Source: Priapulus caudatus (taxonomy: Eukaryota > Priapulida > Priapulimorpha > Priapulimorphida > Priapulidae). Taken from it: a stretch of 29,865 bases of DNA. Position numbers and translations under genes: made by a program. Positions 1,368 through 24,195 of this stretch are shown one piece after another. The DNA lies in contig NW_014578553.1 of NCBI RefSeq assembly GCF_000485595.1, positions 39,097 to 68,961 of the forward strand, in the 5' to 3' direction. The notes beneath the pieces are model-generated. The model did not search any database and was not told the origin of the DNA. It worked only from the letters and a program-made list of their open reading frames with translations. Every line of letters begins with the position of its first letter. The first letter of the stretch is position 1.

Positions 1368-1506
1368 CGTTCTTCTGTATGATGTAGAGTAGTATGATGC
1401 GGATCTTGTCGCTGAAGCTGACGTTCTGGTCGAGCAGGATCGGCACGATGTTTCGCATGTGATCTTTGATCTTCTCTCCCTCCGAGTCGGTGCCCATCGC
1501 CAGATC
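1368..1506 (-). CDS. unc-18: unc-18 exon: end of domain 3a (DLAMGTD...[11 protein letters not shown])
   Basis: Acceptor AG at 1508-1507 follows a pyrimidine-poor but usable tract, and the donor GTGAGT begins at 1367. The exon holds 46 codons plus one base and starts on a codon boundary with Asp-Leu-Ala-Met. It encodes the segment after the CRVEQ motif, including [10 protein letters not shown] and KNG, matching about residues 371-417 of mammalian Munc18-1. It splices from the exon ending at 1923. The next exon, expected to begin ITEENLNKL-like, is not found in the remaining 1.3 kb, where the inverted-repeat element sits. Confidence 0.96.
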
Positions 1507-2984
1507 CTGCCGATTCACACACGCGCGCACACGCAGATATAGAACACGCAGCAATACAACACACGCAACAGAGCGCATACAACACACGCAACAACGCCCA
1601 CAGATACAACACGCATATACAACACGCGCAACAACCCCCACAGATACACCACACATATACAACATGATACACCATGCATATAACAAACACAACAATTCAG
1701 ACGGATTCACTCCGGATTTTTCCGGGACTCTCCGGATTTTTCCGGAACTCTCCAGATTTTTCCAGAACTCTCCGTATTTTTCCGGAATGCTCCGGATTTT
1801 TCCACGACTCTCAGGATTTTTCCGGTACTCTCCAGATTTTCCGCGACTCTCCGGATTTTTCCGCGACTCTCCGGAAAACACTACCGGAACGCGCGAGAGC
1901 GTGCTCGCGCGGCCGCATGTACCTGTTCGACCCTGCAGAGCTTGTCGGCTCCCCTCTGGTAGGACTTCATGCAGTCCTCCGCGAGATTGAGGTGAGTCGA
2001 GTACTTGCTGAGCTCCTTCTGGTACTGCGGCATCTTCTTCAGCATCTGGGAAAGGTCTCGCATGGTCGTCTTCTCCGTGCCTCCGCTCGTCGTCATGCGC
2101 TTGTTGTCGGCAAATCTCTTCAGTTGCTTCGTCACCTGCCTGTAGTGTAGTGGGGGGGGGGAGGGAGGGGTAAGGTAAGCGAGGGTCTCTACACACGCAC
2201 CTCCGTTGTCTCCCAGTAAGTGTCACACGTCACTGTCACATCTCCGTTGTCTCCCAGTAAGTGTCACGCGTCACTGTCACATCTCCGTCGTCTCCCAGTA
2301 AGTGTCACGCGTTGACCACTGCCACGCGTCACTGCCACGCGTCAGTGTCACATCGCGGTCGTCTCCCAGTAAGTGTCACGCGTCACTGTCACATTGCGGT
2401 CGTCTCCCAGTAAGTGTCACGTGTCACTGTCACATCGCGGTCGTCTCCCAGTAAGTGTCACGCGTCACTGCCACGCGTCACTGTCACATCGCCGTAGTCG
2501 TCTCCCAGTAAGTGTCACGCGTCACTGCCACGCATCACTGTCACATCATCGTTGTCCTCTTGACATCGCATCTTCAATGCTGCGTGCGTGTGTGTGTGCG
2601 TGCGTGCGTGCGTGCGTGCGCAATGTGACAGTGACGCGTGACACTTACTGGGAAACGACGGCGATGTGACAGTGACGCGTGACACTTACTGGGAGACGAC
2701 GGAGATGTGACAGTGACGCGTGACACTTACTGGGAGACGACCGCGATGTGACAGTGACGCGTGACACTTACTGGGAGACGACCGCGATGTGACAGTGACG
2801 CGTGACACTTACTGGGAGACGACCGCGATGTGACAGTGACGCAGCTCGGTCCACAGATCGTCGTTCTCATCCAGCAGCACCTCCTTGTCATGCAGACCTT
2901 CCCCAGACATCACCGACTGTGAGGTCGAATACCTGAGCACACAACGACGAGTTAGTACACACGCCACGTACACCTAGCATGGTG

Positions 2985-3028
<44 letters not shown>

Positions 3029-3137
3029 AACAAAAATAGCAGCAACAACAGCAGCAGCAACAAAAACAATAGCAACAACACCAACAACAATAACAGCAGC
3101 AACAGCAGCAGCAGGAGCATAAACAATAGAAACAACG

Positions 3138-3181
<44 letters not shown>

Positions 3182-3220
3182 AACAGCAGTAACAACAGCA
3201 GCAGCAGCAGAAACAATAGC

Positions 3221-3255
<35 letters not shown>

Positions 3256-5869
3256 AAATAGCAGCAACAACAGCAGCAGCAACAAAAACAATAGAAAAAA
3301 CAACAACAGAAGCAGCAGCAACAACAGAAACAATAGCAACAACAACAACAACAACAACAGCAGCAACAGCAGCACCAGAAACAACAGCAGCAGCAACACC
3401 AACAACAACAACAGCACGCCGAAAAACAAAACAACAAAACAACGACAGCCGAAACGCGACCGCCGAAACAATCGACGACCGTCGCCGCCGCGACGCGCGG
3501 ATAGATGGCGCCACTACTCACTTGTAGACATCGTTCTCTATGGGCAGCAGGTCGTGAGCCATGGCTTGGAAGGTGAGCTCATGCAGCAACGGCGTCACCG
3601 CGTCAAACCCTCGCTCCAGGATGAGCAGCTGCGAGCGAGCTTTGTCGATACCCTGCATGCACGCAGCACGACACGTCAGGCTGAGGCGGAGCCGGGAGCA
3701 GTGCGGCGGAGCAGGGTAGAGAAGCGAACGAGGCGAGCAGACATTTTTGTCGGGCGAGTTTTTCGTTTTTCGAGCGCGAGAGTTTAAGCGGGAAATTTTC
3801 CGCGCTCGCGAGATTTCGGCAGAATACAATTGCCCGCCGTGCATTCGCCGATTGCTGAACGGAATCGCGCGTTCCATCGCCCCCGTCGAACATTTTTTCG
3901 AGCAAGTTCTTCATGCACGAGATATCAAAACCTTCGGACTTAAGTTTAAAAAAAAACTATTTAAGCTCTCTGATAGTAAGTGACAACAAGGAAAGTGATA
4001 AGAAGGATACAGATCGACGAAGGCGCGGCAATATTAACCATACCCCCTAATTTTCCGTAATGGATCTACACGATTCACAGAAATGGTCAATTTTGCATCA
4101 GAAAAGGTCGGAATTCCGACTAAAGTTAGAAAATTCTCGTCCCTGGGCGAGTTTTTCGCCCTCACGAGATTTCAGCTGAATACACTCGCCGGACGTGCAT
4201 CGTACAGTCGCCGATCGTTGAACGAAATCACACGTCCCATCACCCCTTCTTATCGTCTCTACTAGACAAGGTACACGTTAGGCTCAAGTTAAGGACATTC
4301 TCAAACCGAAAATATTAACAACAATAACGACCGCTCGTTTTTTTCAGCACGTTCCAAGAACCGCAGCGGCTTTCCCCGAGACTTTCCGGACCAGAAAAAT
4401 ACTACTTCTAGATTGCGGGAGTTTTTCGGGTTCCGGTCCGAATCCGGCACGGTCCACACGAGGGCGCCACGAGGAGGGAGCGCACGGGGGGAGGGGGTGA
4501 GTTGTGCTTACCTCGCCCATGGTTGGATCATCTGCTCTGTAGGCATTCAACTTCTGCTGCACAAGCTGGGCCAACTCCACGTTGCGGTCGAAATCGCTGC
4601 AAAATCACGCGGTTGCCGCGGCAACGTCAGAGTCGGGAGAACATCGGACGGGAAATTTCCCTCCTTTAGGGAATTCCCTCCCACCTCATCTCGTCTACTC
4701 CGCATCCAAATGCCAGTTCTCGGGGGCATCACACTACCCGAGGGGTTTACACTACCCGACTTTATGTTGGCGAATTGGCGAATTGGACCAATTTCGCAAT
4801 TCGGCAACTCCGAGTTGGAGAAAATAGAACATGTTCTAATCTCCCAACTAGTTGCTATCGATCGGTTGCTCGCGCGACTTTCGCATTTACACTGCCGATT
4901 GTCGGTTGCATAGTTGGGAAGTTAGTCCAATTCACAAATTTGACAACATAAAGTCAGTAGTGTAAACCCAGTTTAGGTTTCCTGTCGTTCTATTGTCTGC
5001 TGGGCCGCTTTCTCGTCCCGCGTTAGGAAACCTGAATGTCATTGCTTCGCCGTTCCTGCCGTTCGTTCGTCCGACCGAGCGCGTGTACGTGAGCTGACGC
5101 TACTCCAGGCATCGAAGCTTCCATTCCGAACATAATTTTCAACCAGTGTCGTGTCTTTCAAAGTCTCGTGATTTCGTCAATTTTACGACACTTACCGTTA
5201 TTGCTTGAGTTATAGCGACTGGCTAGAGTCATGTTGAAAAGTCTTAGAACCTTTGTACCTAGCTATATTCTCAAAAAAAATGCACGCTCCGAGTTTCGAT
5301 TTCCGCCGCCATTTCATGCGAGTGTCAGACTATCTTGCGATAGCGCGAGATATCGGCCAATTTTTAAAGTAGAAACAGAGTCAACTACACACAATTAGAT
5401 GCCCTTTTGTTTGAATTAGGTGCAGAATCAGTGCACTTGTAACCTGTTGGTGCACAACAAGTCATTAGTGCATTAATTCTGACTAAGGCGCCATTTGCAA
5501 ATTGATTGTCGCTATAATCAAATATATGCTACAATGTCACGATGTATTCAAATCCAATTTTCTATGCTATAACTGCATAAATTCTTAGTTTTTAAAATTG
5601 GTGTAATCCTGTAATCAGTGATATATCCGCTGTGAGATTTCGCCATATTTTTTTTAGATTGTGCATTTCTGATAGTTTCGATATAAGCTTTAATTCACGC
5701 ACACATACACTCACCTGCGGTATCTGATGTTGGGATATTCACCGAGCGTCGCACGCACGCACACACACACACGCACGCACACATACATACACCACGCACG
5801 CACGCACGCACACACGCACGCACGCACACACACACACACACACATGCACACACACACATAGACCACACA

Positions 5870-5900
<31 letters not shown>

Positions 5901-8520
5901 GCGCACGCACACACACACATAGACTCACCTGCGGTATCTGACGTTGGGATATTCGCCGAGCGTCGCACACAGCGTGGCTATCTGCTCAGCAATGCGCTCC
6001 ATGTTGGTCATTCGGCCGCCCTGCCGCGCCGGATTGTAGAAGAACTGGAACGTCTCAGGCGAGTCGAGCGAAAACACCTAAACAACAGAGGAGAGCCTGA
6101 TCACTGCTCTATCATGTAACCTGCTGTTGTTGATTGATTTTCTACCCCGAGAGTTCTACTCTGAGACTAAAATTTCACGAATGGACCGACAATCCATGAC
6201 GTGTCTGCCCCTCCTATTCGTAGTGGGTCCTCTGGCCCCCGAAAATACCTGTATAAACCCAACACAACCGTTACCTTGCCCCTGACGAATCAAAACCAGA
6301 ATCCGAAAACCTATTTCGACCCCCGTTCACCGATATTCCTTCTGAACAACGTGGTTGCTGCTTCTGCAGGGAGCGGCAATGACGAAGCCTTCCTAACACA
6401 TACCTGTGACTCGTAGGGCAGGAATGCAATGTTGATTTCCTTCAAGGTCTTGATGTACTTTCCGACGTGCGACTTGCATAAGTCGTTGAAGAGTTCGTCG
6501 GGGCAGGCTGAAAAACATATGCGGCATGATAGTCCGACTCACGCACCCACGCACACTCACACACACGCACGCACGCACGCACGCACGCATTCTCACGCAC
6601 GCACGCATTCTCACGCACGCACGCACGCACACGCACGCACGCACGCACGCACACGCACGCACGCACACCCACTCACGCGTGCATGAACGTACGCACGCAC
6701 GCACGCACGCACGCATGCACTCACACACGCACACACACCCACGCGTGCATGAACGTACGCACGCACACTCACGCATGCATGCACACACGTACGCACGCAC
6801 TCACACACGCACGCAAATGCAAACACACACGCCACACCCATAATAATGAAACCATCACACATCAAACCGTTCATACTAATGCAATTCTGGCCCAGCATTA
6901 ACCACTAGCATCGTACGTAGACGAATCGCAACGCATCGCACCTCGCACAACAATCTATAATTCAGCACGAGCGTACCTTCGGTGAAGAACAAGTGAATTG
7001 ATCGATACAGGTTGGTTCCGGTGAAATCCTGCATTAGTTGTTTAACGGACTGAAACGAAGAGACAAAGTCAATTTCAGCAGAAATATACGCTTGAACGCC
7101 GGTCGGTGGTTAGCGCCGAATGTTTTCCTAGACCACAGATAGTCTGGTGCGGATGTCCTGCGCAAACAATCCTGATTAGTGACGTCCCGATGATCGATTA
7201 TAATCGAAAGTCAGTCGTTTGCAGCAACCGATTAAGCGCACGATTCTAAAAATAAATAATCAATTATCAAAAAAAAAAATTCAGTTGAAATTTTTTTTTT
7301 TAAAGATGTGCAAACATTGATGAAATGACTCTTTATTTTATTTTTGTGTTTTTTTGGTTACTTTACAGCTTAAATCTAACCTACACCAAACATGAGCATG
7401 TATAAATACTGTTACATAGCTTTTAGAATATTGTATTATAAAAAATACTATATTATATGATATATGGTATATTTCAATATCTGGTGGCCGCGATCAATAA
7501 CATTCAACCGATTATCTTCGATCATCGATCGGTTGGGTGCAACCGATGATCGATGATGAAATTCCAACTGATTCCCATCACTAATCGTAATAATAATTAA
7601 TAGATGACAGATGAAATCCGGCCACCGTCATCCTGACTGTAACTAATGGAGGATGTCCGGTGATTGCCATTCTCTGTTTCTAGCCACGATATAAGGCCCA
7701 ACCTATACGCCTCTTCTAACATTTTCTCAGCATATATAGACGTTCAGCTTGTACTATAAAGCAAAGGAAATGCATAGCTTCCGGATTCGGAACGCGATGT
7801 TCACCAACGACCTCAGAAAAAATGTCGTGAATCTGCACGCCATATTGAAACAAGAGGCTACTAGGGGTGGGTGTGTGGGTGGGCGTACGTACGTACGTCG
7901 TGCGTGCGTGCGTGCATGTGTGCATGTGTGGGTGTGCGTACGTACGTGCGTGCATGCATGTGTGGGTGTGCGTGCGTGCATGTGTGGGTGTGCGTACGTG
8001 TGTGGGTGTGCGTGCGTGCGTGCGTGCATGCGTGCGTGATTGCATGTGTGGGTGTACGTACGTGCGTACGTGCATGCGTGCATGTGTGGGTGTGCGTACG
8101 TACGTGCGTGCATGCGTGCGTGATTGCATGTGTGGGTGTGTGCGTCGTGCGAGGAATGTCCTTGGGTGTGTACGTACATGCGGGGTGTGGCGTACGGCTG
8201 CAAGCGTGCATCGTGTGGGTGTGCGTACGTGTGTGGCGTGCGTGCGTGCCATGTGTGGGTGTGTCGCGTGCGTGCCGTGCAGCATGTGTGGCTGTTGCGC
8301 GTACGTTCGTGCGTGTTGTGCAGTGCATGGGTCGGGTGTGCGCTACGTGAACGTGCGTGCATGTGTGGGCTGTTGCGTACGTACTGCATGTGTGGGTGTG
8401 CGTACGTGTGGGGTGCTACGACGTGCGTGCAGTGTTGGTGTGCGTACGTACGTGCGTGCATGTGTTGGTGTGCGTACATACGTGCGTGCGTGGGTGGGAG
8501 GGTGAATGGGGTGTGTGGTG

Positions 8521-8551
<31 letters not shown>

Positions 8552-8843
8552 TGTGTGTGTGTGTTGGCGGGAGGGTGAATGGGGCGTGTGTGTGTGTGTG
8601 TGTCACTGTGTGGGCGATTTCATTGCATTAACCTGCGTGGCCTCGGCACAAACGGTGTTTGCATGCCCGACGTTTAGCGGCACCCTGGTGAAAAGAACGC
8701 CTTTCAAGGTGTGCGCGTGTCACAAGTCTCTCACTTGGCAGCGCATTACGACACTGCCTATCTCACCTTTCTCTGTGGGCGTGATGAGTAGATGCAATCC
8801 AAGAGTGGCAGCGGCTCCCTGTTCTTACTGATGTCTTCCACAA
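1368..8843 (-). CDS. unc-18: unc-18/STXBP1 (Munc18) gene, partial, nine exons
   Basis: This is a Sec1/Munc18 (SM) family gene. Such proteins bind syntaxin and assembled SNARE complexes and are needed for synaptic vesicle priming and fusion at the plasma membrane. Exons on the minus strand are 8843-8767, 7049-6977, 6507-6404, 6077-5929, 4596-4512, 3652-3522, 2932-2813, 2139-1923 and 1506-1368. All eight internal introns are GT-AG and every junction keeps phase, giving 1095 nt with no stop. Diagnostic strings include [59 protein letters not shown] and [10 protein letters not shown]. The protein matches the neuronal Munc18-1/UNC-18 branch better than Sly1, Vps45 or Vps33. About 55 N-terminal and about 180 C-terminal residues are missing, because those exons fall outside the window or were not recognised. 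Family and orthology are known by similarity; expression and splicing are inferred. Confidence 0.95.
1712..1876. repeat. 20-bp minisatellite in an unc-18 intron
   Basis: About eight copies of a 20-bp unit, TCCGGATTTTTCCGGGACTC with variants, fill part of intron 1507-1922. Units differ by one to four bases, and one unit is 19 bases. The apparent Ser/Phe/Arg- or Pro/Glu/Ser-rich ORFs across it on both strands come from the repeat. CA-rich sequence at about 1515-1680 lies between it and the exon. Confidence 0.9.
1923..2139 (-). CDS. unc-18: unc-18 exon: domain 3a helical hairpin
   Basis: Acceptor AG at 2141-2140 follows a run of nine C/T-rich bases, and the donor GTACAT begins at 1922. The exon starts with one base completing a Gln codon and ends on CAG, 72 further codons. 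It encodes [14 protein letters not shown], then [20 protein letters not shown] and [15 protein letters not shown], ending KLCRVEQ. This is the domain 3a region that contacts SNAREs. Pro in KKMPQ and Leu in YSTHL correspond to P335 and L348 of rat Munc18-1. Relative to vertebrates there is a small Gly-rich insertion before EKTTMRD. Confidence 0.97.
2200..2546 (+). repeat. Inverted array of unc-18 exon-end/5' splice-site units (antisense to the gene)
   Basis: Seven copies of a unit with core TCTCCCAGTAAGTGTCAC, near 2209, 2250, 2291, 2362, 2403, 2444 and 2509, lie on the plus strand. The spacing is mostly about 41 bases with some longer steps. The unit is the last 30 or so bases of the exon at 2813-2932 plus its splice donor, turned round. 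In the unc-18 transcript it is therefore complementary to the exon end and donor. Units vary at a few positions (TCTCCGT, TCGCGGT, TTGCGGT). Confidence 0.93.
2577..2622. repeat. (TGCG)n spacer between inverted arrays
   Basis: A short TGCG/TG microsatellite separates the plus-oriented and minus-oriented arrays. It would be the loop if the two arrays fold back on each other. Confidence 0.85.
2623..2845 (-). repeat. Sense array of unc-18 exon-end/5' splice-site units
   Basis: Five copies at an exact 41-base spacing (starting near 2641, 2682, 2723, 2764 and 2805) of the same unit, in the gene's orientation. On the minus strand each reads CACATCGCGGTCGTCTCC then CAGTAAGTG. The copy closest to the coding exon (2806-2845) is the real exon end and donor. 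The four farther copies lie in the intron, and each carries an intact CA/GTAAGTG donor. The unit length of 41 is not a multiple of three, and TAA in the donor would stop translation if a copy were retained. Confidence 0.94.
2813..2932 (-). CDS. unc-18: unc-18 exon: [17 protein letters not shown]...VVSQ
   Basis: Acceptor AG at 2934-2933; donor GTAAGTG begins at 2812. The exon starts with the third base of a Lys codon and ends with the first two bases (CA) of a Gln codon. It encodes [12 protein letters not shown], then [17 protein letters not shown] and CHIAVVSQ, aligning with the KEVLLDEDDDLW...HIAEVSQ segment of animal Munc18 proteins. Its 3' end is part of the 41-bp array. I chose the donor at 2812 because the chain then reads [11 protein letters not shown] without a break. 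Any of the four further identical donors would add an in-frame TAA. Confidence 0.95.
2982..3415. repeat. (CAA/CAG)n trinucleotide repeat in an unc-18 intron
   Basis: About 430 bases of ACAACAACA with interspersed AGC and AAT triplets occupy most of intron 2933-3521. On the coding strand this is TTG/CTG. Long poly-Val, poly-Cys and poly-Leu reading frames on the minus strand are a by-product. Confidence 0.96.
3522..3652 (-). CDS. unc-18: unc-18 exon: start of domain 3 ([15 protein letters not shown]...ENDVYK)
   Basis: Acceptor AG at 3654-3653; donor GTGAGT begins at 3521. The exon is 43 codons plus AA, completed by G of the next exon to give Lys. It encodes [17 protein letters not shown], then [31 protein letters not shown] and LLPIENDVY are among the most conserved strings of SM proteins. 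The Arg-Gly-Phe-Asp motif and the FQAM segment are intact. Confidence 0.97.
3750..4250. repeat. Diverged direct repeat pair in intron 3653-4511
   Basis: Bases about 3755-3890 and 4135-4250 share an ordered series of matches: GCGAGTTTTTCG, CGAGATTTC, then GCTGAATACA-like, CGTGCAT, TCGCCGAT and a C-rich end. The copies differ by substitutions and short gaps. This looks like an old dispersed repeat present twice. Nothing else identifiable is in the intron. Confidence 0.55.
4512..4596 (-). CDS. unc-18: unc-18 exon: [22 protein letters not shown]
   Basis: Acceptor AG at 4598-4597; donor GTAAGC begins at 4511. One leading base completes a Ser codon, followed by 28 codons ending at Glu. The sequence [14 protein letters not shown] and [14 protein letters not shown] matches the domain 2 end of Munc18-1. 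The next exon begins GID, so the junction reads TMGEGIDKAR as in the family. Confidence 0.96.
4743..4973. mobile_element. MITE-like element of about 230 bp in an unc-18 intron
   Basis: The left end GGGTTTACACTACCCGACTT and the reverse complement of the right end (GGGTTTACACTACTGACTTT) agree over about 50 bases with a few changes, continuing through ATGTTG and GAATTGGACCAA/ACTAA. The interior is short and non-coding. A partial extra copy of ACACTACCCG lies just before the left end. I saw no clear target-site duplication. Confidence 0.65.
4974..5700. other. Unc-18 intron sequence without recognisable features
   Basis: This is ordinary A+T-moderate intron DNA between the small inverted-repeat element and the duplicated exon end at 5709. 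I see no ORF, RNA gene or repeat that I can support here. Confidence 0.6.
5709..5754 (-). repeat. Duplicate of an unc-18 exon end plus splice donor
   Basis: These 46 bases match 5923-5968 at 44 positions. They contain the last 39 or so bases of the exon ([12 protein letters not shown]) and an intact CAG/GTGAGT donor at 5714. In the gene direction the copy lies about 170 bases beyond the real donor, after a GCGT/GT microsatellite. One change would be Val to Ile and the other silent. No acceptor lies directly before it, so it is a decoy or alternative donor rather than a complete exon. Confidence 0.93.
5755..5922. repeat. (ACGC)n/(AC)n microsatellite in an unc-18 intron
   Basis: A run of ACGC and AC units with short interruptions begins right after the true splice donor in gene direction and ends at the duplicated exon end. 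Cys/Val/Arg-rich reading frames across it are artefacts of the repeat. Confidence 0.96.
5929..6077 (-). CDS. unc-18: unc-18 exon: [14 protein letters not shown]...EYPNVRYR
   Basis: Acceptor AG at 6079-6078; donor GTGAGT begins at 5928. The exon is 49 codons plus AG, completed to Ser by the next exon. It encodes [18 protein letters not shown], then [20 protein letters not shown] and VRYR, matching domain 1/2 of Munc18. [10 protein letters not shown] and the P.VRYR string are nearly invariant in animal UNC-18. The middle (QGGRMTN) is the usual variable loop. Confidence 0.97.
6404..6507 (-). CDS. unc-18: unc-18 exon: CPDELFNDL...[11 protein letters not shown]
   Basis: Acceptor AG at 6509-6508 after TGTTTTTC; donor GTATGT begins at 6403. 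Two leading bases complete an Ala codon, then 34 codons follow. It encodes [20 protein letters not shown] and [14 protein letters not shown], equivalent to the CPDALFNEL...[12 protein letters not shown] segment in domain 1. The next exon begins VFSLD, giving YESQVFSLD as expected. Confidence 0.97.
6536..6836. repeat. (ACGC)n microsatellite in an unc-18 intron
   Basis: About 300 bases of ACGC/AC units with ATTCTCACGC and GCGTGCATGAACGT interruptions, the latter as a repeated block at about 6676-6692 and 6742-6758. It fills much of intron 6508-6976, next to the acceptor. Confidence 0.95.
6977..7049 (-). CDS. unc-18: unc-18 exon: SVKQLMQDF...HLFFTE
   Basis: Acceptor AG at 7051-7050 (CGTTTCAG); donor GTACGC begins at 6976. 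The exon holds 24 codons plus one base. It encodes [20 protein letters not shown] then FFTE, matching the SV..LI.DF......Y..AHVFFTD segment of Munc18 domain 1. It joins to CPDELF via an Ala codon. Confidence 0.94.
7175..7585. mobile_element. Non-autonomous hAT-like element, about 410 bp
   Basis: The ends read ATTAGTGACG and, reversed, ATTAGTGATGGG. Inside both ends are sets of ATCGATTATAATCG or GATCATCGATCGG motifs that pair with one another. TAGTGATGGGA-like ends with ATCGATTATCG-type subterminal motifs are known from hAT-derived MITEs. The interior is AT-rich and non-coding. A precise 8-base target duplication is not evident. Confidence 0.5.
7866..8612. repeat. Large GTGCGTAC/GT microsatellite block in an unc-18 intron
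   Basis: About 740 bases built from GTGCGTGC, GTACGTAC, GCATGTGTGGGTGTGCGTAC and, towards the right, pure GT. A block GGGAGGGTGAATGGGG occurs twice (about 8497-8512 and 8568-8583). All long reading frames here, rich in Cys/Val on one strand and Thr/His on the other, come from the repeat. Confidence 0.96.
8767..8843 (-). CDS. unc-18: unc-18 exon: [12 protein letters not shown]... with shifted end
   Basis: Acceptor AG at 8845-8844 after TTGTTTGAC; donor GTGAGA begins at 8766. Two leading bases then 25 codons read [18 protein letters not shown] and SSRPQRK. The family reads [25 protein letters not shown] here. The last seven residues look like the same DNA read one base out of frame, restored at the splice site. 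The exon still joins in phase to SVKQL. It is the most 5' exon I can identify; the preceding N-terminal exons were not found. Confidence 0.9.
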
Positions 8844-9040
8844 CTGTCAAACAACAACGGTTCTCTATTAAAGTGATCGCGTCGCCTTGAACAGTAAACG
8901 TAACCAAATTATGTCGACTTTTTCACAAAATGTAAGCGATTCTGTTCACTTCTTATATGCTTAAATTGCTGCATTATACTTCCTATTTTTCTATTCTGTT
9001 CGATGTGAACAAACACTCGACAATAGCAAGAAATGTAGTG
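8844..9040. other. Intron or 5' flank, no recognisable feature
   Basis: About 200 bases of plain sequence between the most 5' recognised unc-18 exon and the minisatellite. It is presumably intron, since the exon's first two bases require an upstream donor. Confidence 0.6.
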
Positions 9041-9042
9041 AT

Positions 9043-11250
9043 CATACAGCATTCGTTAGCGAGGTAACGCGGACTAGCTACTCACTGGTACAGCATTCGT
9101 TAGCGAGGTAACGCGGACTAGCTACTCACTGGTACAGCATTCGTTAGCGAGGTAACGCGGACTAGCTAGCTACTCACTGATGTACAATGCATTCGTTAGG
9201 CGGAGGAACGCGGACTAGCTAGCTACTCACTGTACAGCATTCGTAGCGAGGTAACGCGGAGCTAGTCTATTACTCCAACTTGGTACAGCATTCGTTTACG
9301 AGGTAACGCGGACAGTCTACTCACTGGCTACACATTGCGTTAGCGAGGTAACGCGGACTAGCTAGCTACTCACTGGTACAGCATTCGTTAGCGAGGTAAC
9401 GCGGACTAGCTAGCTACTCACTGGTACAGCATTCGTTAGCGAGGTACGCGACTGCTACTCCACTGGTACATCATTCTGTTAGCGAGGGTAACGCGGAACT
9501 AAGCTAGCTTACTCACTGGTAACAGCATTCGTTAGCGAGGTAACGCGGACTAGCTAGCTACTCACTGGTACAGCATTCGTTAGCGAGGTAACGCGGACTA
9601 GCTAGCTACTCACTGGTACAGCATTCGTTAGCGAGGTAACGCGGACTAGCTGCTATCACTGGTGACCTTCCGTTTAGCGAGGTAAGCGGACTAGCGTACT
9701 ACTACACTGGTACAAGCATTGTCGTTAGCGAGGTAACGCGGTACTGCTAGGCTACTCACTGGGTACAGCATTTCGTAGCGAGAGGTAATGCGGACTAGCC
9801 TTACTCACTGCGTACACGGCATTCGTTAGGAGGTAACGCGGTCCTAGTTACTCACTGGTACAGCATTCAGTTAGCGCAGGTGAAGCGGACAGGGCTATCA
9901 CTGGTAATGCTTCGTTAGCGACGGTAACGCGGGAAGCTAGCTACTCACTGGTAGCCAGCATTCGTTAGCGAGTAACGCGGCACTAGTAGCTACTTCACTG
10001 GTAAGGCATTACGTTTAGCGAGGTAACGCGGATAGTAGCTACTCACTGGTACAGCATTCGTTAAAGCGAGGGTAACCGCGGACTAGATACTCACTGGTGA
10101 GCACTTCGTTAGCGACCGGTAGACGCTTAGCTAGCTATCACTGTACAGCATTTCGTTAGCGGAGGTTAACGCGGAACTAAGCTACTCACTGGTACAGCAT
10201 TCGTTAGCGAGGTAACGCGGCTAGCTTAGCTACTTCACGGTACAGCATTCGGTTAGCGCAGGTAACGCGGATTACTAGCTACTCACTGGTACAGCATTCG
10301 TTAGCGAGCGCTTAACGCGGACTAGTATCACTGGTACAGCATTCGTTAGCCGGGTAACAGCGGAACTAGCTTACTAGCTTCAGCATCTTACCCGGAGCTA
10401 TCCTAGCAGCATTCGTAGCGAGGTAACGCGGTCTGCTAGCCTACTCACTGGTACGCGATTCGTTAGCGAGGTAACGCCAGGACTAGCTACTCACTAGTAA
10501 GCATCCGCTTGTTAGGTCGAAGGTTAAACGCGGACTGATAGCTATCACTGTACAGCATTCGTTAGCGAGGTAACGCGGATAGCTAGCTTACTCACTGTAC
10601 AGCATTCGTTAGCAAGGTTTTAAAACGCGGACTAGCTTACTCACTAGCTACAGCATTCGTTAGCGAGGTACGCGGCTAGCTAGCTACTCACTGGGTACAA
10701 GCATTCGTTAAGCAAGAGTAACGCGCGTACTAGCTACTCACTGGTACAGCATTCGTTAGCGAGGGTGTTTTTTTTAACGCCGGACTAGCTAGCTACTCAC
10801 TGGTGACGCATTCCGGTTAGCGATGGTAACGTCCGGCTACGCTAGCCTCTCACTGGCTTACAGCATTCGTTTAGCGAGTAACGCCGGACTTAGCTAGCTA
10901 CTCACTGGTACAGCACTTCAGTTAGCAACGTAACGCGGACTTAGATAGCTACTCACTGGTACAGCCATTCGTAGCGAGCCCGGGGTAACGCGGATAGCTA
11001 GAGCTACTCACTGGTACAGCATTCGTTAGCGAGAACGCACTAGCAGCACCCTCGCACGCAGTTAGCAAGTAACGCGGACTAGCTAGCTACTCACTGGTAC
11101 AGCATTCGTTAGCGAGGGTAACGCGGACTAGCTACTACTCACTTGGTTAAGCATTCGTTTAGCGAGGGTAACTGCGGACTAGCTTACTCACTGGTGATGC
11201 CTTCTTTGCGAGTAACGTAAACTAGCTACTCACTGGTGATGCCTTCGTTT
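9043..11250. repeat. 44-48 bp minisatellite, about 45-50 copies
   Basis: The unit reads GGTACAGCATTCGTTAGCGA then GGTAACGCGGACTAGCTAGC then TACTCACT. Some units have one AGCT less, which gives 44 rather than 48 bases. The array starts cleanly near 9043. Some blocks are perfect for several units, and others carry single-base insertions, deletions and homopolymer additions in nearly every unit. Such a mixture suggests raw long-read sequence. The right end merges into the duplicated segment at about 11240. There is no spacer diversity, so it is not a CRISPR array. Confidence 0.97.
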
Positions 11251-13910
11251 AGCGAGGTCATGCATCTTGCAGCATGACGAGACGATACGCCATGCTCAGC
11301 TTGCGTCGCACGACCATGGGTCTTCCACTCTCCCTCTTCGCTCCACGTCTCACGACCTCCTCGACCACCTCTGCAACTCGGAAACACTACACCGTGTAAT
11401 GCGATGTCACGGCGAGCGGACAAACGCTGTGAATGGACAACAAGTGTAAGTGCACTAATAAGTGCATCATAGCATAGTACAGTGCGTTCCTCCATGTAAG
11501 TAAGTGCAGGGTGCGAAATTAACTGCGATCCGGAGTCAAAACTCCTGATTTACTGCGACTCCCCCCTGATTTGACATATGCAGGAGTCCGTGCTGAACTC
11601 CCTGAAAACTTTCTGTTATACTAAACTAGTTTCGTTTCCAGAGCATGGCCCTAGCGGAATTTGCCGTATTTTTTCAGCAAATGTCAAGCAATTTGGCAGC
11701 GGCAACCACATGAATCTTCAAAAAATAAGCACGATGCCGTTTTGTTAATATCTTTAGTTTTTGAAAACCTCAGACTGCAGACCTCCCTGCATTTTGCTGC
11801 GGACTCCTTCTTTTTGAGGGTATGGGAGTCCGTTGCGGACTCCCGTGTTCAAAAGTTAATTCTACCTCTGCTGCAGTCGGTTGCGGGCAAGTTAAATATT
11901 TGGCCTCAGGCCTTCAGGTTTAATAAGTACAGGAGGGCTCTAATGACTCCCCTAGAACACCATAGGGGGACTTTTCACGCTCCATATCACACCCTTAAGA
12001 GGACATGATGGAGAGCCTCCATTAAAAAATCACACCCTTAGAGGCATGATGGAACGAGCTCCACTAAAATCACACCCTTATTTAAAAGGTCTGCCATTTG
12101 TTTTAAGATACGACGAAGGCGTGCTATGAAAGCTGCATTCTCATTGGCCTACTGAAACAGAGTTGGGCTAGAATAGATACTCCAAGTCAGGGCTCGCGAT
12201 CCATTGCCAACTCTATGGACAGGGGAAACTTAGCCTAAAAGGCACGCGTGATCGCGGCGGCTTTTGATGTACAACGGATCGATCGATCTGCCGTACTATA
12301 TATACTGCCTGGCCGTAGCTACGGCGGCTACACAACACACACACACTTGCAGCGTCAAATAAACGGCACACACTGCGCAACGTCTGACAATCCAAACAGT
12401 GACTAAGTCCGTGTCTATATTGTAAAAGCAAACTATTTTAGAATGGTATTAAATGAAGGCATCTGGTTAGTTAGGCTGTTGGACTGTAAAATGAAAATTT
12501 TTTGTACAATTCTAACCCCCCTAAAATTTTCTCTCAACCGGATTTAGACGTTTCAACAATCGACCCTGGGACTGTGAAATCAGAGGGGATTTCCGCGGAT
12601 CCGCCGGAAGATTCTTTCATCCCTGCTAAAAATTGGAGCCGGCTATTTCAACATTAATACACAGATTTTGCGTGCGCGATTTCAACCACTTTTATGAGGC
12701 GCGATGATGCGCGCACCATGGCACCAATTTATGGTGCGCGGTTGGACGCCTCCACTCGAGCGCGCATTCGCCGCCCCTTAAAAATGAAAGGCCTTGTGGC
12801 CTAATATTAGAACGAAGACAGGACCTCTGATCAGGAATTTTAGCAATTGTTTAGAATTTTAGTGTTCTCAGAAATGGACGAATATAATAGTATACCAATT
12901 GCTATATACAGGGTGGTCACAACGTAAAATCAAACATGGCTAAAAACTGGGAACTTTTAGAGGAGTACCTTAGATATTAATATAAGTCTGCGGCACATCA
13001 ACAAACGTGGAGCGCGAAGTGGCAGGACTTGTTTAGCCGCGGGGCCAGGGAAGCTCAAGGGGGTTTTAAGATCGCTCTCTGGTGCAATATTAACCTTATT
13101 TTGGAGCATTTTTTTTACAAAATTTATTTACTATATTCAAAATAATTTGGGTTTTGAGTTCAAGAGTCATGAGTGATGATAATTTTTTCATTGTTGTTCA
13201 ATTTTGTATACTAGTGTGAATGTAAGACCAGTCAAAGTTATAAAGCGCGTGTTTGTGAAAAATGCAAATAAATTATAACTTACAAGGTGAAACTATATTT
13301 CGCTATATTTTATTCGGATTGAGCACCGTTATGAGTAGAAAATTCAGTATCGTAATAAAGGCTTTAAATCCCAAGTTTCCTTTTCCTAATTGCGGCCCCG
13401 AGCATTCTGCTGCCTCATAAGCGGGGAAGTTCCTTTGACGGAGGGACTTCCACGGACACCATCATTTACGGGCATTTAGTGTGTTTTCTGATTCTAGTCT
13501 TAGTTAGCAAGGAATCTGATGAAATAGGCCTGGTTATTGCTGCAGTGTTTTTTATTCATTAGCGGACTTGCGAAGCGCTATGATATGTAGGCTCAAGACA
13601 AGGTGAAAGTCCATGTCGACAAAGTTATTCGTTTGGCTAGTTGCCGATTGCGACAAATAAAAAATTCTAGTTGTGTAATTTTCCTAACATCCTTTGAGCC
13701 ATGGCGCATCGCACGGACATTCTCACATTTATTTTTTTCAAAGGTCCTCGCGTCTTCGGCGAAGCGGAAAAAAGCGGGCCCGCGAGGAACGCGTCTGTGG
13801 CTGCTGCACATCACGCTGCGTATACGTGCCTGCTGGCTGGGGGCCGGGCATTTGATTTTAAGATTACGAGGGAGGGGAACATTTGTGTCAGTCGCGTTGG
13901 TGCTAATCAC
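11240..13910. repeat. Duplicated segment, copy 1
   Basis: This segment and 15350-16934 are direct copies. Both begin with ATTCGTTAGCGAGGTCATGC or a one-base variant, both run through the TACAGGGTGGTC, CACCGTTA.TGAGTAGAAAA and CTAACATCCTTTGAGCCA landmarks, and both reach GCCTGCTGGCTGGGG. Copy 1 has an additional 890 bases at 11907-12796. Repeated ACTCC/GGAGTC words lie at about 11530-11850. No ORF is shared between the copies at useful length, so I see no gene. Confidence 0.92.
11907..12796. mobile_element. Transposon-like insertion in copy 1 with matching empty site in copy 2
   Basis: The 890-base block begins CAGGCCTTCA and ends TGAAAGGCCTTG, short imperfect inverted termini. It is flanked on each side by TGGCCT (11901-11906 and 12797-12802). 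Copy 2 has a single TGGCCT at 15965-15970 and no insert. The interior has three copies of ATCACACCCTTA (about 11987, 12029, 12070), a hairpin GCGCACCAT...ATGGTGCGC at about 12711-12740, and no transposase ORF. CAGG ends and a 6-8 base duplication suggest a non-autonomous hAT-type element. Confidence 0.7.
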
Positions 13911-13911
13911 T

Positions 13912-14298
13912 AACTAAAATGTAAGGGGGCACCGGCTGGGCTATGAGCGAGACGATAGGCCAAAAACTCTTTCCGGAATTGAGGGAAAAGGCTACAATCC
14001 GGGAATGACACACGAGTGTGCCGGCACACAAAAATAAACGTGTGAATTTCATTACGATTTTCCATGGATTACCGTTCTATAATCCTACGGGTCTACGTAG
14101 GCACGCCCGCAGGTGCACACGCACACAGGCACGTGCACACGCACGCACACACAGGCACGTGCGCAGGCACGCATACAGGCATGCGTGCATGAATCAGAGC
14201 AAGCAGCTCAGAAAACGTAGACGCACTGTATTATTTGACTGCCCGACAAGTGGGAGCCCATGCACAGAGTAAAACAGTGTAATAGACTGTAATAGGGT
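13912..14298 (+). repeat. Inverted duplication, left copy
   Basis: The sequence from ACTAAAATGTAAGGGGGCACC to GTGTAATAGACTGTAATAG is the reverse complement of 18718-19118 at roughly 85-90 percent by eye. The copies share the GTGCCGGCACAC palindrome, TTCCATGGATTACCGTTCT and GAATCAGAGCAAGCAGCTCAG. A CA/CACG-rich stretch lies inside. It directly follows copy 1 of the duplicated segment. Confidence 0.9.
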
Positions 14299-14504
14299 AT
14301 GCTACAAGCGCGCGATGTGACTACGCGTACATCGTCCCGTTCGACAGTGCAGTACAGTTGCATTTTACTTTGTTTGTGTTGTTTCTTGCTTTGATATTTC
14401 AAACCTGTTGCCCTCAAATCCAAACCTGTCGGCAATTTTCAAACCTATCGGCCCAAAACTCAAATCTGTTGGCCTTACATGTTAAAACCCCTCGTGGACC
14501 ACAC

Positions 14505-14665
14505 TGCTATATAATATAAAAATAAATACAATTAACAATTTTCGAGGTGGTGGGCTTGAATGCTAGTATTTGCCATCATTATTTGTGATGTAATTGAAAA
14601 AATAAATATTATTATTATTAAATCTTTATTGCATGTCATTCATTTACAAACACATGTTCTAAAGA
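14505..14665 (+). repeat. Dispersed repeat, copy 1
   Basis: Matches 20040-20215 in the same orientation. The shared landmarks are GGTGGGCTTGAA, TATTTGCCATCA, a TTATTATTA stretch, TTTATTGCATGT and ACATGTTCT/ACATGTGCT. It is non-coding and AT-rich, possibly the end of a dispersed retroelement family. Confidence 0.75.
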
Positions 14666-14812
14666 AAGTCTCTTTCATGGAGAAACACATGGAAAATCAC
14701 ATATCCCTATTTAGTGTTCTCAGAACAATGTACGCAAGTGCAACATATATATAAACCAGTGAATTACTACAGCCTCTTGCTCTAGCTAGTCTGGCCAAGC
14801 CCAGTAAAAATA

Positions 14813-15218
14813 TGTCTCCACACACGGCACGGCACGACACAGCAAAACGCAGCGCCAGTTGTGATGAAAAAAAATGCATTGTGATTTCGCGCATTGTGTC
14901 TGAGCGCATTGTGTTCACTCTGGTTCAGTGATCAGAAATTATGCACATGTACTTGTTGTCCATTGGCTGATGGTGGTTTGAGTAGAACACGTGATAAAAA
15001 TCAATCGCGTTGATTGGTTCAACTGTCTTTCGCAGCACACGGCTCCGGCAAGTCAAACTCATTTGACTTTTGCCATCGCCGTAAAACCGGGCTAGCACCG
15101 TGCCGTGTCAGTGGAGACTGCGCCATAAGATGTAACACTTAACAGATTTGAACTTTGCCGGTAGGGGTGAACGGCGCCGTTTCCGTGGCGTTCCGTGCCG
15201 CGCCGCGTGTGTGGAGAC
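14813..15218. mobile_element. MITE-like element with GTCTCCACACACGGC ends
   Basis: The left end GTCTCCACACACGGCACGGC matches the reverse complement of 15194-15218 (GTCTCCACACACGCGGCGCG) with a small gap. A third, internal inverted end lies at 15097-15120 (GTGCCGTGTCAGTGGAGAC). This suggests either nested insertion or a duplicated right terminus. No transposase is encoded. Confidence 0.65.
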
Positions 15219-15349
15219 GGGCCTTAAGAATGGTGCTACCAAACTCAAACTATGTATATTACATCAAAAAAGTACTATCTTAATGTAGATAAATAATTAT
15301 AATAAATATTAATAATAATGTTAGCTGTATTTTTAGTAATGTTCATCAT

Positions 15350-16934
15350 TAAGACATTCGTTAGCGAGGTCATGCATCTTGCAGCATGACGAGACGATAC
15401 GCATGCTCAGCTGGTCCACGACCATGGTCTTCCACTCTCCCTTCTTCCTCACGCTCCTCACTACCTCCTCGACCACCTCTGCAACGCAGAAACACACGAC
15501 CGATTAATGCGCATGCCACGGCCGAGCGACAAACGATGTGATGACACAAGTAGTGCACTAATAATGCACATAGCATAGTACAGTGGTCATCCATGTAGTA
15601 AGTGCAGGGTGCGAAATTAACGCGAGTCCGGAGTCAAATACTCCCTGATTTACTGCCGGACTCCCTGATTTGACATATATGCAGGACTCCCTGAAAATTC
15701 GGCTATACTAACTAGATCGTTCCAGAGCACGGCCTCGCAGAATTACCGTATTTTCCAGCTAATGTCCAAAGAAAATTTGGCAGACGTGCAACCGCATGAA
15801 TCTTAAAAATGGGTTATTGTTAATATCTTTAATTTTAAACCTCAGACTGCAGACTCCCTCATTTTGCTGCGGACTCCCTCTTTTTGAGGGTAGGGAGTCC
15901 GTTGGACTCCCGTGTTCAAAAGTTAATTTCTACCCCTGCTGCAGTGGTTGGGGCAAAGTTAATATGGCCTAATATTAAACGAGACAGACCTCTATTCAGA
16001 CTGTTTAGAATTTTAGTGTTCTCAGAAATGACGAATATAATATATATACCAATGCTATATACAGGGTGGTCCACAACGTAAAATTCAAACATGTAAAACT
16101 GGGAACTTTAGAGTACCTTAGATATTAATATAAATCGCGCACATCACAAACGTGGAGCGCGAAGTCACTTGGGGCCGGGGGCCAGGGGAAGCTCAGGGGT
16201 TTTAGATGGTCTCTGGTGCAATCTGAACCTTATTTTGGAGCATTTTTTTTACAAAATTTATTACCTATATTTCAAAATAATTTGGATTGAGTCAAGAGTC
16301 ATGAGTGATGAGCCATTTTTCATTGTTCAATTTGTATACTAGTGTGAATGTAACCAGTCAAATGTTATAAAGCAATGTGTGAAAAATGCAAATAAATATA
16401 CTATAAGGTGAAACTATATTTCGCTATATTTTATTCGGATTGAGCACCGTTACTGAGTAGAAAATCAATAAAGGCTTTAAATTCCCAGTTTCCTTTTACT
16501 AATTGCTGCCCCGGCATCTGCTGCCTCATGGAAGGGGAAGTCCTGAGCTGATGGGCCTTCCACGGACACCATCATAAGGGCATTTAGTGTGTTCTGATTC
16601 AGTCTTAGTTAGAAGGAATCTGATGAAATAGGCTGGTTATTGTGAGCTGTTTTTTATTCATAGCGGATTGCGAAGCGCTATGATATGAGGCTCAAGACAA
16701 GTGAAAGTCTATGTCGGACAAGTTATTCGTTTGGCTAGTGGCCCGATTAGACAAATAAAAAATTTCTAGTTGTGTAATTTTCCTAACATCCTTTGAGCCA
16801 GGGCGCTATCGCACGACATTCTCACATTATATTTTCAAAGGTCGCGGGAAAAAGCGGCCCGCGAGGAACGCGTCTGTGGCTGTGCACATCGACGCTGCGT
16901 ATTTGTGCCTGCTGGCTGGGGCGGGATTGATTGA
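15350..16934. repeat. Duplicated segment, copy 2 (truncated by gap)
   Basis: A direct copy of 11240-13910 that lacks the 890-base insertion and stops at the run of N. Relative to copy 1 it is missing single bases and short words at high frequency across its whole length, a pattern biased to deletions and typical of low-quality sequence rather than of natural divergence. Confidence 0.92.
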
Positions 16935-17358
16935 NNNNNNNNNNNNNNNNNNNNNNNNNNNNNNNNNNNNNNNNNNNNNNNNNNNNNNNNNNNNNNNNNN
17001 NNNNNNNNNNNNNNNNNNNNNNNNNNNNNNNNNNNNNNNNNNNNNNNNNNNNNNNNNNNNNNNNNNNNNNNNNNNNNNNNNNNNNNNNNNNNNNNNNNNN
17101 NNNNNNNNNNNNNNNNNNNNNNNNNNNNNNNNNNNNNNNNNNNNNNNNNNNNNNNNNNNNNNNNNNNNNNNNNNNNNNNNNNNNNNNNNNNNNNNNNNNN
17201 NNNNNNNNNNNNNNNNNNNNNNNNNNNNNNNNNNNNNNNNNNNNNNNNNNNNNNNNNNNNNNNNNNNNNNNNNNNNNNNNNNNNNNNNNNNNNNNNNNNN
17301 NNNNNNNNNNNNNNNNNNNNNNNNNNNNNNNNNNNNNNNNNNNNNNNNNNNNNNNNNN
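16935..17358. other. Assembly gap (424 N)
   Basis: Unsequenced bases. They separate the broken end of copy 2 from a coding fragment on the right, so the join may not reflect the true chromosome. Confidence 0.99.
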
Positions 17359-20215: not shown

Positions 20216-21184
20216 ATGTACTGTAGTATACAAATACACATAAACTGAAGTGTCTGTTATAGAGAAAGAATCTCATAGGTGCAATAGTGTTGAACGATTA
20301 CAATAGTAATTTTTTGAGTATTACTGTACAAAACAGCGCTCTACAATATAAAGATAAAATATAATACAAAAACGACAGCTGCACTTTCTGTACAAGTAAA
20401 ATGCAGTTTTAAATCATTTCAACTCTCATACGTACTCACACGCACGCGCTCACTCTCGTATGACCCCCACTAATATACACATACACATTCACACACATCA
20501 CACACATACGTGCACGCACACACGCACGCACGTGCATATATATATATTTATCCAAAATACATTACAATAAATGTATTATTCTCCTACCTGTTATAATATG
20601 CTGTTAAAATTACCTTTTAACCGTTTTTTAATGTACTAAGTGAAGGGCGCTCTTTTGTGTCTAATGGTAGTATATTTCATACGTGTATTGCCTCCTTAGT
20701 AAGTGAGATGTGACCATACACATGGGCGCAAATGCCATGGGGACACGGGGGACACGTCCCCCCCCCCCACTTTTCGAAGGGTGGGGACACAATATCAAAT
20801 GTCCCCACCCCCAGGTTTTTGAACATGTGCTTCTGCATAATGTTCCAGCCCCTTCTATAATATTATTATTTTGTGTTGTCTCCACTAAATCAAAAAAATA
20901 AAAAGTATAAAAAATGACTCCCGATTGATAGCCTAAACTGAATACAGGAACCGCGACCGTATACTACTGCTAGGTGCCCTAGGTAAGGGATATTGAAATG
21001 ATTTGCTTGTCTCGAGTTCCAGAATCTTGTCACTCCATATCCGATCCTACAAGCATGTACAGGGATTTAACGTAGACTTGTAATATGTAAGGCTAGTACG
21101 CACGCACTCGCTAGTTCTCCAGTAGCTATTGATATCTGTGGTAGATATGTACAATTGTATATACATATTGTATATATTACATAC
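20216..21184. other. Intergenic sequence with CA repeat and G/C hairpins
   Basis: A CA/CACG-rich stretch lies at about 20475-20545. At 20745-20812 GGGGGACACGTCCCCCCC is followed by GGTGGGGACA...TGTCCCCACC, two strong short palindromes of the kind found at transposon ends. No coding sequence is supported. Confidence 0.6.
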
Positions 21185-22146
21185 TATTATTTAGATCGTA
21201 CAGCACGCCTGAAACGGCGCTCGCGCATGCGCACAATCTCCCGAGAAGATTATAATATTTTGCTAAAATTATGAATTTAAAATAAAGGGGGGTCATCCTA
21301 GCATAGATTGATATGATCAATTTTTATAAGTAGACTTCACTTCAGAAATAGGAAGCAGACCTTGCATGAAAGTTCCCTACTTCATATATCAGTCAGTGCA
21401 TAACCTGGCTATGATACTGTTTTAGCGCTTGCACAATATCTCACCAGAAGAGTTATATTTTGTTATGAAAACGCATTTAGTATGGTCAAGGGATATCTCA
21501 ACACAAGTTTCTGTAACAAATTCTGATCGGGAGACCTGTGTTTATAGTTAGGAGAGCTCCCTAGCCTGTAGGGTGCAAAACTCCTACTTTATTCCCGCCC
21601 GCCCTTCTATTTGTCTCCATTGTCGCACCCTCAGCCGCCTTCTCCTTCCACCGCCCCTCGACTGTGTTCCCTGATACCTTCCCTCAGTTTCCCACCCCTC
21701 TCTCCCTCAACAAGCTTTATTTACGTACTTTTCCTTTGGCCGTACCGCGCGTCTGAAACGGTGCTCGCGCATGCGCAATATCTCCCGAGAATAAGAATAT
21801 TTTGCAAACATTCGGAATTTAAAATGAAGAGGGGTTATCCTAGCTTAGATCTGTATGATAAAATTTTATCAGTAGACCTCACTTCAGAAATAGGAAGCAG
21901 CCCTTGCATGTAATCTCCCCGCTGCATATACCATTAAGTACATAACCTGGCTACGTTACTGTTTTAGCGAATGCGCAATATCTCACCAGAGGAGTTTGAT
22001 TTTATGATGAAAATGCATTTAGTATTGTCAGGGGATATCTCAACATAGGTTTCTGTAATTAATTCTTATTAGTAGGCCTCTGTTTATCATAAGGAGAACG
22101 CCCTAGCCTGTAGGGTGCAAAACTCCTACTTTATCCTCGCCCGCCC

Positions 22147-22383
22147 GCGAAATTTTTTTTCCCACTTGAGTTCCGGACCCACCATAGATAGTGTTTTGTA
22201 ATAAATGGTTCTTATATATATGGTTGGATTATAGTTAGTGTTAAGGTTCGTGTACGTGTTAGGATTAGGGTTAGGGTTAGGGATAGGATGTATTTATTTT
22301 ACATTGTTGCTTCGAGGAAGTCGAGTGAATGGAGTGCGCTGATTGGCTGTGGTCCGGAACTCAAGTGGGAAAAAAAATTTTGC
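22147..22383. mobile_element. Inverted-repeat insertion with telomere-like core, copy 1
   Basis: The ends GCGAAATTTTTTTTCCCACT and its partner AAGTGGGAAAAAAAATTTTG form inverted repeats of about 35 bases that also include TTGAGTTCCGGACC. Short units of the array lack it at the same CCGCCCGCC site (about 21597 and 22927), so it is an insertion with paralogous empty sites. The interior includes TTAGGGTTAGGGTTAGGG near 22265-22284. No ORF suggests a transposase. Confidence 0.8.
22265..22290 (+). repeat. Interstitial telomere-like TTAGGG repeats, copy 1
   Basis: Three to four TTAGGG or near-TTAGGG units (GATTAGGGTTAGGGTTAGGG then ATAGG) occur inside the inverted-repeat insertion. TTAGGG is the common animal telomere unit. 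This copy is embedded, not terminal. Confidence 0.85.
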
Positions 22384-23476
22384 CGCCCGCCCTTCCCTTT
22401 GTCTCCATTGTCGCACCTTCAGCCGCCTTCTCTTTCCACCGTCCCTCGAGTGTGTTCACTGCCACCTTCCCTCAGTTTCCCACCCCTCTCTCCCTCAGCA
22501 AGCTTTATTTACGTACTTTTCCTTTGGCCGTATTGCACGTCTGAAACGGTGCTCGCGCATGCGCAATATCTCCTGAGAATAAGAATATTTTGCAAACATT
22601 CGGAATTTAAAATGAAGAGGGGTTATCCTAGCTTAGATCTATATGATAAAATTTTATCAGTAGACCTCACTTCAGAAATAGGAAGCAGCCCTTGTATGTA
22701 ATCTCCCCGTTGCATATACCATTAAGTACATAACCTGGCTACGTTACTGTTTTAGCGCATGCGCATTATCTCACCAGAGGAGTTTTATTTTGTGATGAAA
22801 ATGCATTTAGTATTGTCAGGGGATATCTCAACATAAGTTTCTGTAATTAATTTTTATGAGTAGACCTCTGTTTATAGTTAGGTGAGCGCCCTAGCCTGTA
22901 GGGTGCAAAACTCCTACTTTATCCCCGCCCGCCACTCCCTTTGTCTCCATTGTCGCACCCTCAGCCGCCTTCTCCTTCCACCGTCCCTCGACTGTGTTCC
23001 CTGATATCTTCCCTCAGTTTCCCACCCCTCTCTCCCTCAGCAAGCTATATTGACGTACTTTTCCTTTGGCCGTACCGCGCGTCTGAAACGGTGCTCGTGC
23101 ATGCGCAATATCTCCCGAGAATAAGAATATTTTGCAAACATTCGGAATTTAAAATAAAGAGAAGTTATCATAGCTTAGATCTGTATGATAAAATTTTATC
23201 AGTAGACCTCACTTCAGAAATAGGAAGCAGCCCTTGTATGTAATCTCCCCGCTGCATATACCATTAAGTACATAACCTGGCTACGTTACTGTTTTAGCGA
23301 ATGCGCAATATCTCACCAGAGGAGTTTTATTTTATGATGAAAATGCATTTAGTATTGTCAGGGGATATCTCAACATAGGTTGCTGTAATTAATTCTTATT
23401 AGTAGACCTCTGTTTATCATAAGGAGAGCGCCCTAGCCTGTAGGGTGCAAAACTCCTACTTTATCCTCGCCCGCCC

Positions 23477-23713
23477 GCGAAATTTTTTTTCCCACTTGAG
23501 TTCAGGACCCACCATAGATAGTGTTTTGTAATAAATGGTTCTTATATATATGGTTGGATTATAGTTAGTGTTAGGGTTCGTGTACGTGTTAGGATTAGGG
23601 TTAGGGTTAGGGATAGGGTGTGTTCATTTTACATTGTTGCTTCGAGGAAGTCGAGTGAATGGAGTGCGCTGATTGGCTGTGGTCCAGAACTCAAGTGGGA
23701 AAAAAAATGTTGC
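23477..23713. mobile_element. Inverted-repeat insertion with telomere-like core, copy 2
   Basis: Same element as at 22147-22383, one 1330-base super-unit later, with the same inverted ends and the TTAGGG run near 23595-23614. The right end reads AAAAAAATGTTGC, one or two changes from copy 1. It was probably copied with the super-unit rather than inserted independently. Confidence 0.8.
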
Positions 23714-24195
23714 CGCCCGCCCTTCCCTTTGTCTCCATTGTCGCACCCTCAGCCTCCTTCTCCTTCCACCGCCCCTCGACTCTGTTCCCTGATATCTTCC
23801 CTCAGTTTCCCACCCCTCTCTCCCTCAGCAAGCTATATTTACGTACTTTTCATTTGGCCGTACCGCACGTCTGAAACGGTGCTCGCGCATGCGCAATATC
23901 TCCCGAGAAGAAGAATATTTTGCAAACATTCGGAATTTAAAATGAAGAGGGGTTATCCTAGCATAGATCTATATGATAAAATTTCATCAGTAGACCTCAC
24001 TTCAGAAATAGGAAGCAGCCCTTGCATGTAAGCTCCCTGCTGCATATAACATTAAGTACATAACCTGGCTACGTTACTGGTTTAGCGCATGCGCAATATC
24101 TCACCAGAGGAGTTTTATTTTGTGATGAAAACGCATTTAGTATTGTCAGGGGATATCTCAACATAGGTTTCTGTAATTAATTCTTACCGGTAGAC

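Follow-up and report, generated by a model that had tools for sequence, protein, structure and literature searches.

In the unc-18 gene of Priapulus caudatus, the end of a coding exon and its 5' splice site were found to recur in the adjoining intron as one tandem and one inverted array. This is probably a donor-anchored minisatellite of the kind described as 'mirages', most likely passive and mostly tolerated rather than regulatory. The copies, their orientation, the frame consequences, the involvement of three donors and the predicted fold were all read from the sequence of the window, i.e. the whole 29.9-kb stretch of DNA analysed. The minus strand of the window carries the unc-18/STXBP1-type (Sec1) gene, of which the following exons were used.

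1368-1507, minus strand: unc-18 exon; open frame, Sec1 reading
1923-2139, minus strand: unc-18 exon downstream of the array intron; in-frame junction VVSQ-QVTK, aligned to squid s-Sec1
2813-2932, minus strand: unc-18 exon ending CCCA/GTAAGTG, source of the repeat unit; Sec1 Pfam match and squid s-Sec1 alignment
3522-3652, minus strand: unc-18 exon; open frame, Sec1 reading
4512-4596, minus strand: unc-18 exon; open frame, Sec1 reading
5929-6077, minus strand: unc-18 exon with donor 5928; open frame, Sec1 reading
6404-6507, minus strand: unc-18 exon; open frame, Sec1 reading
6977-7049, minus strand: unc-18 exon; open frame, Sec1 reading

Spliced together, these eight exons encode a 340-residue Sec1/Munc18 piece (Pfam Sec1, E 1.5e-87). 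Its best solved relative is squid s-Sec1 (PDB 1epu, E 4.5e-162), and their alignment takes in residues 1-340, interrupted by gaps of 2-4 residues. The junction of 2813 with 2139 reads HIAVVSQ-QVTK; the squid protein is collinear there, and none of 240 aligned relatives has an insertion at this junction. The gene, its strand, the donor and intron 2140-2812 had thus been named correctly in an earlier reading made from the sequence only. Neither a cephalochordate nor Priapulus was present among the named unc-18 matches listed (120 of 2736, many of them nameless) or among the few named matches listed in a second search (120 of 726); with so many entries nameless, this absence excludes little. In a midpoint-rooted tree of the query and 37 hand-picked sequences of 120 matches listed, the query stood beside one long-branch transcript, outside the sampled arthropods and spiralians; this placement was given little weight.

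Another unc-18 intron contains a 20-nt minisatellite at 1710-1875 (CTCCGGATTTTTCCGGGACT, 8.4 copies), apparently not derived from an exon. A long direct repeat containing TTAGGG-like runs lies in 21177-24197; its two copies, 21177-22867 and 22509-24197, agree at 92.6% over 1691 positions. The window also holds a receptor gene with 12 matches: 11 are from Priapulus caudatus, the best at 84%, and the remaining one is a turtle olfactory receptor (E 7.5e-6). On the strength of these matches an amphioxus origin of the window, considered in view of the mirage-like anatomy, was rejected.

27681-28595, plus strand: single-exon rhodopsin-type receptor (Pfam 7tm_1)

The array intron is organized as follows.

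2140-2812, minus strand: intron with both arrays; donor 2812, acceptor ACAG before exon base 2139, placed by sequence and frame
2619-2842, minus strand: gene-orientation array of five copies; donors (first G) at 2812, 2771, 2730, 2689 and 2648
2581-2620, no strand assigned: TGCG microsatellite spacer separating the two arrays
2198-2560, plus strand: reversed array with seven intact donor motifs, extra 13-nt repeats and one donor-less partial unit

The sequence-only reading had described a 41-bp unit made of exon end plus donor, five copies in gene orientation, seven reversed copies and a TGCG spacer between them. The copy numbers were borne out by exact matches to CCCAGTAAGTG, which occurs 12 times in the window, five times on the minus strand (2642-2816) and seven times on the plus strand (about 2212-2514), and the spacer is present. 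The size of the unit also stood, but the edges given for the span (2200-2845) had to be moved: together the arrays occupy about 2198-2842, and each unit comprises the last 29 nt of the exon and 12 nt of the intron. A search with a 31-nt core (up to 3 mismatches) gave 11 matches against a mean of 0 in 100 shuffles, and a chance origin of the matches is excluded. Rfam gave no match above the gathering score in the whole window.

The genuine donor 2812 is the first of the five gene-orientation copies, at the exon edge of their array. These copies follow each other at 41 nt at every step; the first three are the same throughout the 41 nt, the fourth and fifth have 2 differences each, and all five donors are identical from -5 to +12. 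The donor motifs of the reversed array (first G at 2216, 2257, 2298, 2369, 2410, 2451 and 2508) are spaced by 41, 41, 71, 41, 41 and 57 nt, the 71- and 57-nt intervals holding the extra 13-nt repeats. The donor-less partial unit adjoins the spacer (about 2515-2560). Of the seven reversed units, five have 1-3 mismatches to the exon unit, one is displaced by additional bases, and the outermost has diverged in its left part. The inverted arms reach 147 nt with 94% complementarity. Since the unit types GCGG, TCC and GCC are common to both arms, the inversion may have followed diversification, or the arms may have exchanged sequence. In the transcript the reversed donors read CTTAC, which fits YTNAY, the branch-point pattern. 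On the gene strand CTTACCTTAC is found at 2170-2180, about 32-37 nt upstream of the exon.

Use of donor 2, 3, 4 or 5, or retention of the intron, would yield VVSQ*, with TAA directly after VVSQ; the in-frame TAA that had been ascribed to the four spare donors was thus found for all of them. From frame and homology we infer that splicing takes place at the first donor, 2812. All 12 of the 41-nt units counted by motif search have an intact donor motif, a figure that is partly circular because the units were found by searching for that motif. The reversed copies keep the motif as intact as the gene-orientation copies do, though it is useless there as a donor. When variability was counted (8 variable columns of 41, leaving aside the unit at 2508 and the left 14 columns of the unit at 2216), the chance of a change-free donor core was P 0.11 and that of a 16-column run P 0.10. 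Selection on the donor motif was not accepted as evidence at these values, and the core shows no sign of it.

The array could also have affected the exon from which it came. Positions 2813-2842 encode RHCHIA, the cysteine being specified by a TGT within the 41-nt unit. TGTCAC is found in the exonic portion and again immediately past the donor; the repeat may therefore have served as template for the TGT codon. In 240 relatives this column is Q in 220, K in 9, H in 6, E in 3, L in 1, M in 1 and C in none. We regard a feedback of repeat turnover on the coding exon as a possibility, one with less than an even chance and compatible with the mirage-like origin proposed above. However, it concerns one codon in one sequence, which ordinary substitution may explain, and the unc-18 of a close relative was not found.

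Ten donors and ten acceptors of the gene were scanned with 38-nt probes against 3 kb on either side, on both strands, and significance was assessed with refined edges and 100 block-shuffles (two acceptors may be off by 1-2 bases). Three of the ten donors (2812, 5928 and 11233) beat all 100 shuffles, each with copies in gene orientation in the downstream intron. The scores were 38 of 38 for 2812, which also had antisense copies, 34 for 5928 and 27 for 11233; shuffle maxima in the donor scan were 13-15 (at most 13 for 5928 and 14 for 11233). None of the ten acceptors was copied within the same limits, and with provisional edges and 60 shuffles the outcome for donors and acceptors was unchanged. 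Three of ten donors against none of ten acceptors is only suggestive of a donor preference. The duplications at 5928 and 11233, absent from the sequence-only reading, are the following.

5696-5757, minus strand: one copy (62-nt alignment) of the terminal part of exon 5929-6077, its donor (5714) intact; real donor 5928
9045-11258, minus strand: 48-nt array (about 46 copies) that begins where the EGIT-encoding exon ends; donor 11233

The copied donor 5714 sits 214 nt into the intron. In the 48-nt array the genuine donor is again the first copy; 29 exact CAGTGAGT and 32 GTGAGT are retained, and agreement with the consensus amounts to 257 of 276 cells in the six donor columns versus 2029 of 2229 overall. 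The spare donors of this array are neither purged nor specially retained. No antisense copy of donor 5928 or 11233 was detected within 3 kb on either side. As three donors of the gene have been copied, a tendency of donors, in this gene or in the genome, to seed repeats is likelier than a special role of one intron. A more far-reaching proposal combines several steps: 5' splice sites of an ecdysozoan would give birth to minisatellites, in this gene at three donors, with one array inverted so that the intron bears antisense to exon end and donor; the long duplex would form in vivo, be edited and compete with U1; and turnover would rewrite the exon (Q-to-C). As a whole this is rather unlikely.

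Mirages are minisatellite-like duplications of exon-intron boundaries, described in amphioxus Adh3 and in the globin genes BflGb6 and BflGb9; they are reported to be unstable in length and not to disturb splicing (PMC3087553). The BflGb9 mirage duplicates the 3' boundary of an exon (PMC3087553; PMC3902484), and the accessible part of PMC3902484 adds TnC and similar repeats in PGBD5. Like these, the tandem unit of unc-18 spans an exon-intron boundary and carries spare splice signals, and the 48-nt array likewise arises from an exon end. The authentic boundary lies at one end of the array for donors 2812 and 11233, and in every array or copy the real donor is at the exon edge, which supports a mirage-like reading. 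Unlike the amphioxus cases in the available accounts, the host is a priapulid and not a cephalochordate (a difference of host range, not of structure), three donors of a single gene are affected, and one long arm is inverted; inverted copies are unmentioned for mirages in those parts of the reports. Among open-licence papers, and hence as weak evidence, no mirage outside cephalochordates was found, nor any work linking priapulids with minisatellites.

A misassembly or a chimeric fold-back read might have produced the reversed arm or the number of copies. Copy numbers of short repeats are readily wrong, and that of the 41-nt array, taken from one assembly, is unproven. Sequence quality is low elsewhere in the window: indels abound from about 8.2 kb onwards (8150-17358); the EGIT exon is frameshifted and has a cleaner second copy at 15.36 kb (near 15.36-15.48 kb); 11244-11895 aligns with 15357-15962 at 82% and 12797-13842 with 15965-16921 at 84%, both with many gaps; and a run of N occupies 16935-17358. 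The stretch 8150-17358 is likely gap-filled or haplotype-duplicated, and the copy number of the 48-nt array within the indel-rich sequence is unsafe. However, the eight exons around the array intron (1368-7049) are all open, the reversed copies have variants of their own (e.g. in columns 0, 5, 14 and 20) besides the 13-nt insertions, and the reversed arm includes no further exon sequence, unlike a simple fold-back. An artefact is therefore considered unlikely.

Folding was predicted, for naked RNA, on 833 nt running from the beginning of the exon through the intron to within the next exon. The predicted fold has -539 kcal/mol, whereas 20 shuffles averaged -320.9 (sd 10.0), giving z -21.9. Across the ensemble, one register dominates the pairing of the five donors with the reversed array (0.93-0.97). 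Averaged over -3 to +6 in the full transcript, the probability of being unpaired is 0.008 at the real donor and no higher than 0.001 at the other four. With transcription stopped before the reversed array the value for the real donor is 0.32; it falls to 0.21-0.23 with transcription to 2500-2460 and to 0.045 at 2400, and stays at 0.22-0.26 in each of 5 versions whose reversed array had been shuffled. The hairpin proposed earlier, pairing with the real splice site, is thus predicted by folding and would cover the genuine donor.

These values could be read as a regulatory RNA switch, in which a race between U1 binding and hairpin closure sets the output of unc-18 mRNA, failure leading to VVSQ* and decay. 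The excess stability, the loss of donor accessibility as the reversed array is transcribed, and the fact that every wrong donor choice yields the same stop would all suit such a device. On the other side, any inverted repeat of this size would fold likewise, the argument depends on a predicted fold, the donor core bears no mark of selection, and the two other duplicated donors have no detected antisense copy. We consider a switch quite improbable. Of the interpretation offered by the sequence-only reading, the complementarity and the predicted hairpin over the donor stand, but nothing here supports regulation of splicing; a tolerated repeat expansion was the closest of its three options, though of a kind already described. 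Pure tolerance has a difficulty as well: in the predicted duplex the real donor is almost fully paired, a state that would have to be overcome.

Insertion of a mobile intron or introner-like element is extremely improbable, for although an inverted repeat makes up most of the intron RNA, which recalls the symmetrical introns of fungi, the unit is built from the exon's own coding end and occurs nowhere else in the 29.9-kb window. Symmetrical stwintrons of Hypoxylaceae also carry inverted repeats with possible double-stranded RNA, but in the available text these are terminal, with arms of 45-55 nt, and proliferate to new positions (PMC8469720); the unc-18 arms are tandem copies of an exon end, and no proliferation was seen in the window. 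As in intron gain by tandem duplication of sequence containing AGGT, splice signals were duplicated inside a gene; unlike such gain, as far as the accounts at hand describe it, the unc-18 copies are confined to the intron, whose position is old or, at the least, an ordinary one in frame. The human UBC gene has dual-specific splice sites in a comparable tandem array of identical sites, but according to the accessible text its repeats are coding and in frame (PMC10809524), whereas each extra unc-18 copy brings a stop. Inverted Alu pairs edited in human pre-mRNA are, in the descriptions available, similarly long intronic inverted repeats, and the unc-18 intron is likewise a candidate editing substrate; here, however, the predicted duplex takes in the exon end and the donor themselves. 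Editing of the four A's in the paired exon end would alter the codons for H, H, I and Q.

The probable course, as a mirage-like minisatellite, would be as follows. The end of the coding exon and the 5' splice site were tandemly duplicated into the intron, and slippage or unequal exchange may have spread variants among the copies. Part of the array would also have been duplicated in inverted form across the TGCG microsatellite by a mode that is conjectural. Choice of the first donor would follow from its place at the border of the coding exon and from its being the earliest transcribed; the array would be removed along with the intron, presumably with neutral effect. The hairpin would be a side effect, perhaps present some of the time in vivo, and could be edited.

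If the three donor-anchored cases in one priapulid gene are true, boundary minisatellites are either convergent or a much more widespread means of intron growth and change. The inverted array amounts to a natural experiment, with five like donors, an immediate stop as the price of a wrong choice, and antisense copies downstream. The donor actually used would show to what extent position and exon definition prevail over the sequence of the donor and the structure of the RNA.
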